From Palleronia caenipelagi (lineage in GTDB: Bacteria > Pseudomonadota > Alphaproteobacteria > Rhodobacterales > Rhodobacteraceae), in NCBI RefSeq assembly GCF_007004065.1, contig NZ_VFSV01000024.1:1-53641 (forward strand): a DNA stretch of 53,641 bases, read 5' to 3'. Positions 17,850-22,123 of this stretch are shown piece after piece (the stretch's first letter is position 1; every line of letters begins with the position of its first letter). The position numbers and the translations under genes are program-made. The notes beneath the pieces are model-generated. The model was given only the letters and a program-made list of their open reading frames with translations, was not told the DNA's origin and did no database searches.

Positions 17850-20237
17850 ATGAGCAGTTTCGACGATCCCAACGCCATGTCACAGCCCTCTCTGGCCGCG
17901 CGCGCCATGGCCGCGCGCCCGGCGCCCTATCTTGATGAGCTGAACCCAGCGCAACGTGCGGCGGTCGAGGCGCTGGACGGGCCAGTGCTGATGCTGGCGG
18001 GCGCCGGTACCGGCAAAACCAAGGCCCTGACCGCCCGGATCGCACATCTGATGCAGACCGGACGGGCGCGACCCAACGAAATCCTCGCGGTGACTTTTAC
18101 CAACAAGGCCGCGCGCGAGATGAAGGACCGGGTCGGGCGGCTCATGGGGCAGACGGTCGAGGGAATGCCTTGGCTGGGGACCTTTCACGCGATTTGTGTG
18201 AAGCTTCTGCGCCGTCATGCGGAACTGGTGGGACTGAAATCCAATTTCACGATTCTCGACACGGACGACCAGATCCGGCTGATGAAGCAGCTCATCATTG
18301 CCGAGAATATCGATGAGAAACGCTGGCCCGCGCGGCAACTGGCCGGGTTGATCGACCACTGGAAGAACCGCGCCTGGCGCCCCGATCAGGTTCCCGCGTC
18401 AGAGGCTTCGGCCTTCAATCATCGCGGCAGCGAGCTATACGACTACTATCAACAGCGCCTGAAGACACTTAACGCAGTCGATTTCGGCGATCTGCTGCTA
18501 CACATGGTGACGATTTTCCAGAACCACCCGGATGTGCTGGAGCAATACCAGCGCTGGTTCCGCTATGTGCTGGTGGACGAATATCAGGACACCAATGTGG
18601 CCCAGTATCTCTGGCTGCGGCTGCTGGCCCAAGGACATAAAAACATTTGCTGCGTGGGCGATGACGATCAGTCGATCTATGGCTGGCGCGGCGCCGAAGT
18701 GGGCAATATTCTGCGGTTTGAAAAGGATTTTCCGGGCGCAAAGGTGGTGAGGCTGGAGCAGAATTACCGCTCCACCCCGCATATTCTTGCGGCCGCGTCG
18801 GCGGTGATCGACGCCAATCAGGGTCGGCTGGGCAAAACCCTCTGGACCGCTGCCGAAGACGGCGAAAAGGTCCGCCTCATCGGTCATTGGGATGGCGAGG
18901 AAGAGGCGCGCTGGATCGGCGAAGAAGTCGAATCGATGGCGCGGGGGACGCGGGGTCTGCGGCCCTTCAGCCTCGATGAGATGGCGATTCTGGTGCGTGC
19001 GTCACACCAGATGCGGGCCTTCGAGGATCGCTTTCTGACAATCGGTCTGCCTTACCGCGTCATCGGCGGTCCGCGATTCTATGAGCGGATGGAGATCCGC
19101 GACGCGATGGCCTATTTCCGTCTCGCCGTGAGCCCCGACGATGATCTGGCCTTTGAGCGGGTGGTGAACACACCAAAGCGTGGGCTGGGCGACAAGGCGC
19201 AGCAGAAAATCCAGATGACCGCTCGCAGCAACGGGGTGAGCCTCGTGGACGGGGCGCGGATTTTGCTGCAGGACAAAGGGCTTGGCGGCAAGGGCGGGGC
19301 CGAGTTGCGGGTGCTGGTCGATGCCATCGGGCGCTGGTCCGATCTGGCGCGCCAGCCGGAGCACAACCATATCGAACTGGCCGAGCAGATTCTCGACGAA
19401 TCGGGCTACACCGCCCACTGGCAGAACGACAAGACGCCGGAGGCGCCGGGGCGGCTGGAGAACCTCAAGGAACTGGTCAAGGCGCTGGAGTCGTTTGAGA
19501 ACCTGCAGGGGTTTCTCGAACATGTAGCGCTGATCATGGATAATGAGAGCGACGCGGGCGAGGCCAAGGTCTCGATTATGACACTCCACGCCGCCAAGGG
19601 TCTGGAGTTTCCCGCCGTGTTCCTGCCGGGCTGGGAGGATGGCTTGTTTCCGTCTCAACGCTCCATGGATGAAAGCGGCCTCAAGGGGTTAGAGGAAGAG
19701 CGCCGTCTGGCCTATGTGGGTATCACCCGGGCCGAGGAACTGGCGACGATTTCCTTTGCGGCGAACAGGCGGGTTTATGGCCAGTGGCAATCGGCGCTGC
19801 CCTCGCGCTTCATCGATGAATTGCCCGAAGCCCATGTGGATGTGCTGACCCCGCCCGGTCTCTATGGTGGCGGCTACGGCGCGGCTGGCATGGCGGCCTC
19901 GGCCTCTCCGCAGATCATGACGGCGGCGGAATCGGATCTGCAGGAGCGGGCCAGCCGGGCGGATGTTTATAACTCGCCGGGATGGAAACGCCTTCAGGCG
20001 CGCAGCCAGTCGCGCCCCATGAGCCAGCCCCGCGAGAGCCGCTCCATGGTCATTGATGCCGAAGCGATTTCGGCGTTCACCGCCGGGGACCGCGTGTTTC
20101 ACACGAAATTCGGCTACGGCACTGTGATGGGTCTTGAGGGCGACAAGATCGACGTGGAGTTCGACAAGGCCGGGGGCAAAAAAGTCGTCGGCCGCTTCCT
20201 CGTCGCTGCGGCTGAGGCAGGCGACGTTCCGTTCTGA
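17850..20237 (+). CDS. uvrD: UvrD/PcrA-type ATP-dependent DNA helicase
   Basis: 795 residues, a superfamily 1A 3'-5' helicase for nucleotide excision and mismatch repair or removal of stalled complexes. Motifs in order: Q motif LNPAQRAAVEA, Walker A AGAGTGKT, Ia TFTNKAAREMK, II VDEYQDTN, III GDDDQSIYGWRGA, IV QNYRSTPHI, V TLHAAKGLEF, VI YVGITRAEE. After a low-complexity linker (about 690-740) a C-terminal tudor-like domain appears (AGDRVFHTKFGYGTVMGL), as in PcrA/UvrD. The stop at 20237 is convergent with the small-RNA cluster on the other strand; only about 12 bases separate it from the cluster's terminator. Confidence 0.97.
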   Translation: MSSFDDPNAMSQPSLAARAMAARPAPYLDELNPAQRAAVEALDGPVLMLAGAGTGKTKALTARIAHLMQTGRARPNEILAVTFTNKAAREMKDRVGRLMGQTVEGMPWLGTFHAICVKLLRRHAELVGLKSNFTILDTDDQIRLMKQLIIAENIDEKRWPARQLAGLIDHWKNRAWRPDQVPASEASAFNHRGSELYDYYQQRLKTLNAVDFGDLLLHMVTIFQNHPDVLEQYQRWFRYVLVDEYQDTNVAQYLWLRLLAQGHKNICCVGDDDQSIYGWRGAEVGNILRFEKDFPGAKVVRLEQNYRSTPHILAAASAVIDANQGRLGKTLWTAAEDGEKVRLIGHWDGEEEARWIGEEVESMARGTRGLRPFSLDEMAILVRASHQMRAFEDRFLTIGLPYRVIGGPRFYERMEIRDAMAYFRLAVSPDDDLAFERVVNTPKRGLGDKAQQKIQMTARSNGVSLVDGARILLQDKGLGGKGGAELRVLVDAIGRWSDLARQPEHNHIELAEQILDESGYTAHWQNDKTPEAPGRLENLKELVKALESFENLQGFLEHVALIMDNESDAGEAKVSIMTLHAAKGLEFPAVFLPGWEDGLFPSQRSMDESGLKGLEEERRLAYVGITRAEELATISFAANRRVYGQWQSALPSRFIDELPEAHVDVLTPPGLYGGGYGAAGMAASASPQIMTAAESDLQERASRADVYNSPGWKRLQARSQSRPMSQPRESRSMVIDAEAISAFTAGDRVFHTKFGYGTVMGLEGDKIDVEFDKAGGKKVVGRFLVAAAEAGDVPF

Positions 20238-20248
20238 TCTGACAGAGT

Positions 20249-20289
20249 GACAAAAGAAAATGACGGTGCCGGGGAGGAGGTCGGCACCG
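20249..20289 (-). terminator. Terminator closing the DUF1127-sRNA transcript
   Basis: Read on the minus strand, the 8-bp stem CGGTGCCG/CGGCACCG with a 10-base loop containing CCTCCTCC is followed by TCATTTTCTTTT. The hairpin is also the second stem-loop of the fourth small RNA, so one structure seems to serve both purposes. Confidence 0.75.
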
Positions 20290-20330
20290 CCATCTTCGTT
20301 ACGTCCGCAGGGAGGGAGGAGCGCGAACGT
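20264..20330 (-). ncRNA. Cuckoo/CcsR-type small RNA, unit 4 (distal)
   Basis: Two stem-loops on the minus strand. The first (20330-20300) has arms TACGT/ACGTA plus CGC/GCG. The second (20289-20264) has the 8-bp GC-rich stem that is also the terminator. Each loop shows CCTCCTCCC (complement of 20310-20318 and 20272-20280). This is the anti-Shine-Dalgarno-like signature of the alphaproteobacterial cuckoo RNAs. It is the last of four units on the transcript that begins with the DUF1127 gene. Confidence 0.82.
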
Positions 20331-20345
20331 ATTCGGGAAAAATGT

Positions 20346-20418
20346 GGCGGTGATGCCAGGGAGGAGGAGACACCACCGCCGTCATACGTCTGCCCAGGGA
20401 GGAGGAGGGGCAGGCGTA
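20346..20418 (-). ncRNA. Cuckoo/CcsR-type small RNA, unit 3
   Basis: First stem-loop 20418-20385 (TACGTCTGCCC with GGGCAGGCGTA, one wobble pair), second stem-loop 20380-20346 (GGCGGTG with CACCGCC). Both loops carry CCTCCTCCC on the minus strand (20397-20405 and 20359-20367). The motif-to-motif distance of 38 matches units 2 and 4. An A/T-rich joint (CACATTTTTCCC) separates it from unit 4, a plausible processing site. Confidence 0.85.
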
Positions 20419-20433
20419 ACCCGGTATTTTTGA

Positions 20434-20505
20434 GCGGTGACCCCCAGGGAGGAGGAGGGGCCACCGCCGCGATACACCCACCCAGGGAGGAGGAGGGGGC
20501 AGGCA
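20434..20505 (-). ncRNA. Cuckoo/CcsR-type small RNA, unit 2
   Basis: The second stem-loop (20467-20434) is strong, GCGGTGACCCC with GGGGCCACCGC. The first one (about 20505-20473) keeps the loop motif CCTCCTCCC (20485-20493) and a 3-bp CCC/GGG closing stem, but its outer arms pair poorly compared with unit 3. Motif spacing is 38. The joint to unit 3 (GCTCAAAAATACCGGG on the minus strand) is A-rich. Confidence 0.82.
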
Positions 20506-20523
20506 TATTCCGGTATTCTGTGG

Positions 20524-20594
20524 CGGTGACACCCAGGGAGGAGGAGGGGTGCCACCGATGAGATCAGGACGCCGAAGGGAGGAGGAAAGCGTCC
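20524..20594 (-). ncRNA. Cuckoo/CcsR-type small RNA, unit 1 (proximal)
   Basis: First stem-loop 20594-20567 (GGACGC/GCGTCC), second 20557-20524 (CGGTGACACCC with GGGTGCCACCG, one mismatch). Loops carry CCTCCTCCC (20577-20585 and 20536-20544 on the complement). Motif spacing is 41. It begins about 12 bases after the stop of the DUF1127 gene, so it is expected to be processed from a shared transcript. Confidence 0.85.
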
Positions 20595-20606
20595 CGAAAC
20601 TGCGAA

Positions 20607-20813
20607 TTACTTACGGTGCGATGCTTCCATAGCGATCGACTGGATCTGCGAGCGGTGAACGCCCAGATCATAAAGCTCCCGATCGCTGAGCATGGAGAGC
20701 TCGGCGAGCGTACGGCGATAGATGCGCCACGCATTGTAACGAGCGCGCAGATCGGTGAAGAAGTTGGAGCCGGAGTGACCGGCCTGAACGAAGCTTTGAG
20801 ACAGTTCAGCCAT
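20607..20813 (-). CDS. ccaF1: DUF1127 small protein, CcaF1-like, host gene of the sRNA cluster
   Basis: 68 residues. The C-terminal part is the DUF1127 domain, Arg-rich with the pattern WRIYRRTLAELSMLSDRELYDLG followed by VHRSQI; this string is described here as two adjacent pieces. GAGG lies six bases before the ATG. In Rhodobacter sphaeroides a DUF1127 gene in this position (ccaF1) is stress-induced, encodes an RNA-binding protein and is followed by four CcsR small RNAs; the arrangement here is the same. Regulation by an RpoH-type sigma factor would be expected from that parallel, but I could not point to a convincing promoter. The symbol rests on synteny plus domain. Confidence 0.88.
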   Translation of the reverse strand: MAELSQSFVQAGHSGSNFFTDLRARYNAWRIYRRTLAELSMLSDRELYDLGVHRSQIQSIAMEASHRK

Positions 20814-21613
20814 TTTGAACCTCGGATGTTAGCGTTTGACACTGTGCCGGGCAGCGACACTGCCGTTGGCGTTGATCGGATATTTAGGCTTATTCTGCGG
20901 GTGCACAATCCATCCCGCCATCAATGCTGCTATGCAGCAAGCGCAATGCACCTGGCGCTGGTTGCGCTGTATCGCTCAGTGGCGTGCGCGGGGGGGGCGT
21001 TCGCCACCCCTCGGTGATTGGCAAAGGCAGGTTCTGCTCGGCGCCAAATTCGAATGTCGGCGAGGACCTTTGGGATTTCATGGAACGACGAGGATTCAGT
21101 GGGAAATTGGGGGAGTCGCGCTGTCTGCTCCTGCTCCCCTGTGCATTCGCCACAGTTTTGCCTGAATCCCTGAAAGAAAAATCTTGCTAGATGCAGGTCG
21201 AGGAGGGGCGCATTCTACCACATCTTGATCTCGGCGGGTCTGCGATCAAGATTCTGTGCTCTAAAAGCCGCAGGAGCTCGGAAGGGTCATGCTGATCCCA
21301 TGAGATTTAGGTTGTTTCCCATGAATTCCCGTGGCATCCCTATATCTATCGAAAGGCAGCAGATACCGGCCAGTAGAGCCGGATCTCAAAAACAAAAACT
21401 GAGGCAGAAGCTTCATACAGGCACTCTACTAACTGCTTTTTCGATCATATCGGCAAGCGCGTGGGGCCATACCCCCAGGCAGTGCGCGCGGCCGGCCCCG
21501 GAAACGGGATTGACGGCGGCGATCCGGACAGTGGCAGCAGTTCGGGTCGCCGTTTTCCGTTTCCATACCACCAGAGAATCGATTGGGGGCGGGCAGGTCA
21601 AGGGGCGTTTTCA
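20814..21613. other. 800-base intergenic region between ccaF1-like gene and mraZ
   Basis: No convincing gene on either strand. It must hold the leftward promoter of the DUF1127-sRNA unit and the rightward dcw promoter. Visible structures are a run of eight G (20990-20997) opening a hairpin with CGCCACCCC, spaced TGGGA-like words at 21071, 21081 (TGGAA), 21100 and 21108 that could be MraZ-type boxes but lie about 500 bases before mraZ, and the inverted repeat at 21222-21252. The short open frames here lack recognisable domains. Confidence 0.5.
21222..21252. repeat. Perfect 9-bp inverted repeat upstream of mraZ
   Basis: ATCTTGATC and GATCAAGAT separated by 13 bases. No T run follows, so it is not an obvious terminator; it may be a protein-binding site or mRNA leader structure. 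Confidence 0.5.
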
Positions 21614-22123
21614 GTGGTCGACGTTTTTATCGGATCACACGAAAACAAGATCGACAGCAAAGGGCGTCTGTCGATCCCCGCCGATTTTCGTAAAATTCTT
21701 GATAAACGGGATCCGGACCGCGACGCAGAAGAGCTTCCGCGTTTTGTGCTGCTGTTCGGCGCAGGCTTTCGTGACTATCTCGAAGCCGTTCCCATGGCGC
21801 GGCTTGCGCAGGTTCATCGTCAGATAAAGCGCCTGCCCCCGGGCGATCCGCGACGCAAAGCGCTTGAGCGGCTCTACTATCAGGATGCACAGCGGTTCGT
21901 ACTGGACGATACGGGCCGGATCGTGCTGCCTGCCCGTGCCCGCGCCGTCCTCGGCGGAGCCGAGCGGGCGCTCGTGGTGGGATGTGGTGAGATTTTCTAC
22001 ATCCAGCCCTTCACCGACGATTCCGATCCTCTGCCCGAAGCGGATTCGTCCATTGGCTACGATCCGGCGACCGATCCTTCGGCCTATCTGTCTGGCGATT
22101 TCGATGACGAGCCTGACCTGTGA
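21614..22123 (+). CDS. mraZ: Transcriptional regulator MraZ
   Basis: 169 residues. DNA-binding repressor of the dcw cluster, made of two AbrB-like MraZ domains, seen as [18 protein letters not shown] near the N-terminus and [17 protein letters not shown] in the second half. The start is GTG 21614 because the conserved beginning (VFIGSHENK) follows at once and AAGGGG lies about nine bases upstream; an earlier ATG in frame (21461) would add a non-conserved extension. The C-terminus is acidic (DFDDEPDL). The stop overlaps the GTG of rsmH by four bases. First gene of the cluster. Confidence 0.93.

Follow-up and report, generated by a model that had tools for sequence, protein, structure and literature searches.

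A small DUF1127 gene on the minus strand of Palleronia caenipelagi contig NZ_VFSV01000024.1 is followed by a run of hairpins with a recurring loop motif, which raises the question of what kind of operon this is and what controls it. We analyzed the whole stretch of 53,641 nucleotides (the window) and conclude that the locus is very probably a ccaF1-CcsR ("cuckoo") type operon and an ordinary member of a described kind, a confidence that applies to the operon type alone and does not extend to the identity of its regulator. Membership is by structure and context, though not by the Rfam cut-off: the gene, the hairpins, their covariation, a family match, a conserved gene order, and a conserved promoter cassette are all seen here. 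The features are as follows.

17850..20237, plus strand: uvrD/pcrA-type helicase gene (PF00580, PF13361), convergent neighbor and conserved context, near the array in relatives
20252..20295, minus strand: hairpin 8 (unit 4) at 20295-20258 plus T-rich tract at 20260-20252
20299..20332, minus strand: hairpin 7 (unit 4), variant loop GCTCCTCCCTCCCT, no exact CCTCCTCCC
20345..20381, minus strand: hairpin 6 (unit 3)
20385..20418, minus strand: hairpin 5 (unit 3)
20432..20469, minus strand: hairpin 4 (unit 2)
20471..20509, minus strand: hairpin 3 (unit 2)
20523..20558, minus strand: hairpin 2 (unit 1), loop CTCCTCCTCCCT
20563..20598, minus strand: hairpin 1 (unit 1), loop TTTCCTCCTCCCTTCG
20607..20813, minus strand: DUF1127 gene, ccaF1-type, 68 aa (PF06568, E 8.3e-14), ATG with GAGG upstream
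20880..20888, minus strand: CCTAAATAT, likely -10, family tendency CCYATNTT
20903..20908, minus strand: TTGTGC, likely -35, overlapped by box 2 GTGCACCCGCAG; 12 or 13 nt from box 1 at 30 of 30 sites
20922..20939, minus strand: box 1 of the cassette, TGCTGCATAGCAGCATTG, palindrome at 20925-20939; near-invariant in genus and family
21461..22123, plus strand: mraZ ORF (PF02381), first dcw gene, divergent neighbor

An eight-hairpin array behind a DUF1127 gene

The predicted DUF1127 gene was recovered as the ORF at 20813-20607, and homologues of this ORF stand at the equivalent place in relatives. It is co-directional with the array, which was said to lie directly 3' of it and does: the gap between the stop codon and the first hairpin is 8 nt. 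An upstream DUF1127 gene in this position is the CIN1 arrangement described in excerpts of PMC10253847.

All eight minus-strand hairpins in the original prediction were found (20598-20258), with motif starts spaced 38, 49, 38, 50, 38, 51, and 41 as it had given them. The motif had been claimed for every loop; seven loops carry an exact CCTCCTCCC, and the loop at 20321-20310 reads CTCCTCCCTCCC. The grouping into four two-hairpin units is supported by the linkers, which measure 12 to 13 nt between units versus 1 to 4 nt within them. At the foot of the last hairpin lies the T-rich tract TTTTCTTTT (20260-20252), which together with hairpin 8 forms a probable terminator; a terminator scan listed one unrelated plus-strand site and not the array end. 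The repeat found in the window comprises 2.3 copies of 88 to 89 bp at 81%.

The array exceeds chance. The window holds 7 copies of CCTCCTCCC, versus a mean of 0.91 and a maximum of 3 in 100 shuffles, and 1,000 shuffles of the array gave a mean of 0.098 hairpins (maximum, 2) against the 8 observed. When the loops were kept and the flanks alone were shuffled, the mean was 3.5 and the maximum 7 (1,000 shuffles). The minimum free energy of the array is -164 kcal/mol (z, -10.2), a value as low as which was reached by 0 of 100 shuffles. Shuffles were used as the hairpin control, reversed sequence being unsuitable in that it retains the stems and nearly retains the motif.

An array that runs co-directionally from 8 nt past a stop codon to a T-rich tract could also be merely the multi-hairpin 3' end of the DUF1127 mRNA, a stability element or terminator run whose loop motif is a by-product and which yields no trans-acting RNAs. 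The R. sphaeroides relatives, which are described as processed, stress-induced RNAs in the excerpts at hand, speak against this explanation, as do two features of the conserved loci that are given below; we consider it highly improbable.

Match to the CcsR1 family and stem covariation

At its gathering cut-off, Rfam yields three tRNAs only in the window. In a covariance-model search, the check that the original prediction had named, all four units matched CcsR1 (RF02791) with E values of 1.9e-7 to 6.3e-4, below the cut-off: unit 1 at 20518-20600 (33.3 bits), unit 2 at 20429-20510 (26.9 bits), unit 3 at 20342-20420 (38.8 bits), and unit 4 at 20255-20340 (29.6 bits). The best of these falls short of the gathering score of 65.3, which no unit reached. 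The ar14 model (RF02344) scored 57.1 bits over 20381-20513, also below its gathering cut-off of 58.8 bits.

We surveyed RF02791 at E <= 1e-3 in 60 genomes, comprising our own, 13 others of the genus, 22 further members of the family, and 24 of the class. Matches occurred in 30 of them (14/14 in the genus, 14/22 in the rest of the family, and 2/24 in the class), and the same threshold gave a match in 1 of 14 control genomes. The gathering score was passed by only 1 of the 60 genomes, so it acts as a strict library cut-off rather than one of the published description. It overlooks 29 of the 30 genomes with a CcsR1 match, and the present locus is an unannotated addition to a described RNA family.

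For covariation, we aligned 34 units hand-chosen among the 58 genus matches listed, with a structure from RNAalifold. In this alignment, which favors the result by design (the structure comes from the alignment itself and the units were found via an RNA model), 94.3% of cells are paired and both sides have changed in 14 of 17 pairs; 0 of 500 shuffles were as high in each of five measures, and slid versions were 38 to 58% paired. Helix 1 is the weaker (83% paired versus 97.7% for helix 2). The loop motif is highly conserved in these genus units while the stems covary, which argues against a plain 3' end with an incidental motif. The locus therefore shows what characterizes the CcsR/cuckoo family, namely adjacent hairpins with CCUCCUCCC loops (eight hairpins, seven loops exact and one variant) and a conserved structure with covarying stems, and the CcsR1 matches, hairpins, and gene order agree in making it a new instance of that family, as had been proposed.

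Conserved gene order and array evolution

The neighboring dcw cluster had been singled out for its relation to the array. That relation is not peculiar to this genome and is instead shared by most family members with an array. The array lies near a convergent uvrD in 25 of the 29 relatives with a match (13/13 in the genus, within 0.6 kb; 12/14 in the rest of the family, within 2.4 kb), and within the stretch read, mraZ is on its far side in 23 of these 25. The contigs of G007 and G013 end in the array; a second G013 contig (L053) has mraZ, DUF1127, and motif loops. By tblastn, DUF1127 was matched in 22 of the 25 uvrD-linked relatives (G013 via L053) and in none of G007, G009, and G010. Both uvrD and mraZ are absent at two family loci (L054 and L067, the latter on a contig that ends just beyond the array) and two class loci (L068 and L069).

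A UvrD scan of 80 records included 13 from Rhodobacteraceae or similar organisms, with UvrD identities of 72 to 80%. Motif hairpins and mraZ follow uvrD in 10 of the 13, among them records of Rhodovulum, Roseobacter, Jannaschia, Yoonia, Tropicibacter, and Aliiroseovarius, and no hairpins were found downstream of uvrD in the other three (L080, L102, and L112). Since the uvrD/mraZ setting is common to relatives, the nearness of the array to dcw is inherited.

The mraZ ORF itself probably has its real start near 21614. Its leader carries three TCCC repeats, 10 bp apart and conserved in the genus (21315-21340, plus strand), which resemble MraZ boxes, and a strong hairpin of -30 kcal/mol followed by a T-rich stretch (21511-21562, plus strand), placed like the UpsM terminator.

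Loop-motif counts run up to 15 in the relatives examined. In one member of the genus (L045:4979-5622), the cuckoo array is built from a 104-bp unit repeated 6.2 times with 93% matching, a recent amplification. We also observed two-hairpin cuckoo-like units distant from uvrD/mraZ in L070 and L071 (G001 contigs C29 and C17), so similar to each other that they may belong to a repeated or mobile element, and in L072 (G005 contig C11). In our own genome, contig C112:10555-10638 (L036, minus strand) carries a pair of hairpins, each loop showing CTCCTCCC, and a T-run; this orphan unit, with a CcsR1 score of 22.9 bits (E 0.004), is possibly a second, stand-alone cuckoo RNA, and the ORF just downstream resembles a phage-type methylase. 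In Methylobacterium oxalidis (L095:1712-1893), three close motif hairpins lie upstream of uvrD on the uvrD strand.

A promoter cassette found in much of the family

The promoter of the operon carries GCATRGCNGCATTG-N12/13-TTGTGC. A sigma-70 promoter scan of 19900-21700 gave nothing. Upstream regions were aligned for 11 genus members, including the window, and in 24 rows of the window and the wider family, and the majority block reads ATGC-N3-TGCTGCATRGCRGCATTG, 12 to 13 nt, ATTGTGCA-NN-YGCAGCAT, and then a CCYATNTT-like -10. Among the 24 rows, L102 is without the cassette, and L055, L058, and L059 retain box 1 with no full TTGTGC.

In a pattern search with GCATRGCNGCATTGN{6,18}TTGTGC, each of 14 genus genomes gave exactly one hit, and 69 sites were found in 67 of 120 family genomes; the reversed pattern gave none in either set. 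We inspected 30 of the 69 sites, selected by the search program, as loci, and cuckoo hairpins stood behind all 30 cassettes, RNA sequence having played no part in finding them. A script counted at least two motif hairpins within 1.48 kb in 29 of these, and the other, L254, has downstream CcsR1 matches (35.1 bits). A DUF1127 signature was detected in 22 of the 30 by one expression, in 26 by another, and in 27 by either; L235, L252, and L256 gave none, and their hairpins begin 140 to 215 nt past the cassette. Arrays at 3 of 30 cassette loci thus have no DUF1127 signature within 480 nt, and in L204 a two-hairpin unit comes before DUF1127, both of which are hard to reconcile with an array that is only the 3' end of a DUF1127 mRNA.

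In L204 (1501-2290), a first cassette precedes the two-hairpin unit and its T-run; box 1 then recurs, this time lacking TTGTGC, ahead of the DUF1127 ORF and a weaker CcsR1 match.

In the 13 Rhodobacteraceae-type records of the UvrD scan, the 10 with arrays have a relaxed cassette and the 3 without arrays lack it. Because the cassette tracks the arrays across these records and the inspected loci, it goes with this operon type, and its strong conservation hints at a shared upstream regulator. What this analysis adds is the cassette, present in many genomes of the family; no earlier report of it was found in the literature searched, which excluded the founding cuckoo/CcaF1/CcsR papers. It outweighs the locus itself, since such constancy makes it feasible to look for its regulator and to test candidates.

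Candidate regulators of the cassette

As a hypothesis, we propose that the cassette is the binding site of a LysR regulator of the LsrB/VtlR type. Excerpts of three papers describe a VtlR site, CAATGCAGCCATGCA, with control of three DUF1127 proteins and AbcR2 (PMC12595884); a consensus, GCAT-N3-TG-N3-T, with direct activation of atu1667, orthologous to the Brucella small proteins (PMC7486931); and an LsrB box in the AbcR1 promoter, located at -61 to -49 (PMC8844928). Box 1, GCATAGCAGCATT (GCAT-AGC-AG-CAT-T), is one base off this consensus and has 2 mismatches in 15 to the quoted Brucella VtlR site, and it is the sole 15-mer of the window that close on either strand. If TTGTGC is the -35, box 1 would lie at about -63 to -51.

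A Gellertiella LysR protein adjoining trxB, used as an LsrB-like query, gave a single match at E <= 1e-40 (39 to 47% identical) in every one of the 27 family genomes searched. Judged by this sequence match, our own genome encodes a putative LsrB/VtlR-type LysR protein (C116:39050-39910) with 128 of 291 residues identical to the query; by hand count, 45 of the first 60 aligned residues and 83 of the other 231 are identical. No LysR ORF stands beside trxB in our own genome, Jannaschia, or Rhodovulum. Six family genomes (G014, G016, G017, G020, G021, and G022) have the LsrB-like protein yet lack the strict cassette, so presence and absence cannot test the link.

The bare 15-mer TGCATRGCNGCATTG was found in 38 of 241 class genomes (46 sites versus 5 for the reversed pattern). 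At 30 loci inspected, 24 sites fell inside ORFs of at least 170 aa, and our own locus alone was scored for DUF1127 by script, with L204, of the same family, seen by eye. The excess is mostly coding sequence and leaves the box without support from other orders. In L205, an exact match to the reported VtlR site falls outside long ORFs, and the ORFs listed there include no DUF1127. In Gellertiella, a site fitting GCAT-N3-TG-N3-T occurs near lsrB and is only loosely like box 1. No joint mention of VtlR and CcsR was found in the literature searched.

The broader proposal, which we advance tentatively as somewhat short of probable, is that in Rhodobacteraceae an LsrB/VtlR-type LysR would control, via GCATRGCRGCATTG placed 12 to 13 bp before TTGTGC, one operon uniting the DUF1127 protein and the anti-SD RNAs that are kept apart in Rhizobiales. 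This would be one ancient redox- or nutrient-sensing alphaproteobacterial circuit. Its promoter would also receive stress input through RpoH, and evolution could adjust the dose through the length of the array, which reaches 15 motif loops. Binding of the cassette by the LsrB-like protein would make the DUF1127/anti-SD RNA circuits of Rhizobiales and Rhodobacteraceae one system, and it would open to direct testing the question of which signal, apart from RpoH, determines the level of cuckoo RNAs.

The single base at which box 1 misses the published GCAT-N3-TG-N3-T would also fit a cassette that belongs to another regulator, or that is an extended RpoH-type sigma element, unrelated to LsrB/VtlR and to PhaR. 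The -10 region looks RpoH-like, and R. sphaeroides ccaF1 is RpoHI/RpoHII-dependent according to excerpts of PMC10253847. A palindrome set 12 to 13 bp before TTGTGC in 67 of 120 genomes would seem to exceed the known needs of a sigma factor, and we regard this possibility as rather doubtful.

The main named rival for the regulator is PhaR, a PHB-responsive repressor, whose site the cassette would be if the operon belonged to the PHB regulon. Box 1 agrees with CTGC-N3-GCAG, which we take to be the PhaR consensus, and a phaR gene is present in our own genome. TGCTGCAWTGCAGCA precedes phasin-like paralogues, one of which was tested and matched Phasin_2 (25.7 bits versus a cut-off of 24.9). Spacing bears on both sides: about 21 bp, by hand measurement, separate the boxes of the phasin-like paralogues, as against 30 to 31 bp at ccaF1, but two TGC/GCA boxes lie 29 bp apart before a phasin-like gene (22.3 bits, below the cut-off) that adjoins phaR, which weakens the spacing argument against PhaR. 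Excerpts of PMC12542648 give YGCRNYGCR as the S. meliloti PhaR core and report that PhaR represses the sRNA MmgR. The sequence here departs from that core: at the second Y, TGCATAGCA carries A and box 1 in general an R (TGCATRGC), the base being A or G in the box-carrying rows of alignments made without an imposed pattern. On balance, we think it unlikely that PhaR is the regulator, and the LsrB/VtlR-type LysR stays our preferred candidate.

Elsewhere, TGCTGCAWTGCAGCA occurs before paralogous phasin-like genes in L157, L159, L160, and L162; another TGC/GCA box and a stretch resembling CTATCTT follow downstream, and these sites are likely a PhaR regulon. In our own genome, L163:1501-1817 has a small ORF behind a TGCTGCAATGCGGCA site that looks DUF1127-like by eye and has no Pfam match at E <= 0.001.

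Proposed mode of action

Relatives of the operon suggest how its transcription, processing, target pairing, and protein may work. A single minus-strand transcript would start near 20870 from a stress-type promoter, encode the small DUF1127 protein, run through the eight hairpins, and stop in the T-rich tract, next to the convergent uvrD. An endonuclease (RNase E in R. sphaeroides) would cut the longer linkers and so yield four RNAs, each about 80 nt long and with two anti-SD loops on display. These loops could pair with GGAGG-type Shine-Dalgarno sequences and so lower the translation of many mRNAs, and the DUF1127 protein may aid RNA maturation.

Excerpts of PMC3927594 and PMC10746234 read CCUCCUCCC as an anti-SD motif. 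The R. sphaeroides ccaF1-CcsR1-4 operon is described, in the portions available, as having an RpoHI/RpoHII promoter, RNase E processing, and a terminator (PMC10253847); partial accounts of it also cover its 3'-UTR origin (PMC8625941) and turnover by PNPase (PMC7866481). The R. sphaeroides literature also names flhR as a target, and Hfq dependence and stress induction belong, with RNase E processing, to the marks of the CcsR/cuckoo family. DUF1127 proteins are reported in an excerpt of PMC12501420 to act via protein contact, so a role in RNA maturation may fail for some members.

Comparison with known systems

The logic of R. sphaeroides ccaF1-CcsR1-4 (RF02791), to which the locus had been likened from the outset, recurs here in order, strand, hairpin pairs, motif, and upstream DUF1127 gene, as far as excerpts of PMC10253847 describe it: DUF1127 comes first, followed by four RNAs with CCUCCUCCC loops and a terminator at the end. 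Unlike in R. sphaeroides, the stems have diverged below the Rfam cut-off, one loop is a variant, and the DUF1127 protein has 68 aa rather than 71 aa.

The ar14/NfeR1 RNA of Rhizobiales (RF02344) likewise repeats this anti-SD loop motif over several hairpins, but it is a three-hairpin RNA with its own promoter, and a DUF1127 gene is unmentioned in the excerpts of PMC10746234. The leader of mraZ resembles R. sphaeroides UpsM, the dcw leader, by placement, with a conserved leader and a strong hairpin before mraZ, and it lies on the strand opposite to the cuckoo array, as a separate transcript. The VtlR/LsrB circuit of Rhizobiales (AbcR1/2 and DUF1127-type small proteins) places both DUF1127 genes and anti-SD RNAs under the control of a single regulator, with a GCAT-core box about 50 to 60 bp upstream, as described in the excerpts cited above; here an LsrB-like protein occurs, and box 1 departs from the consensus at one position. 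According to the same excerpts, the targets in Rhizobiales are separate genes, whereas here DUF1127 and the RNAs stand in one operon.
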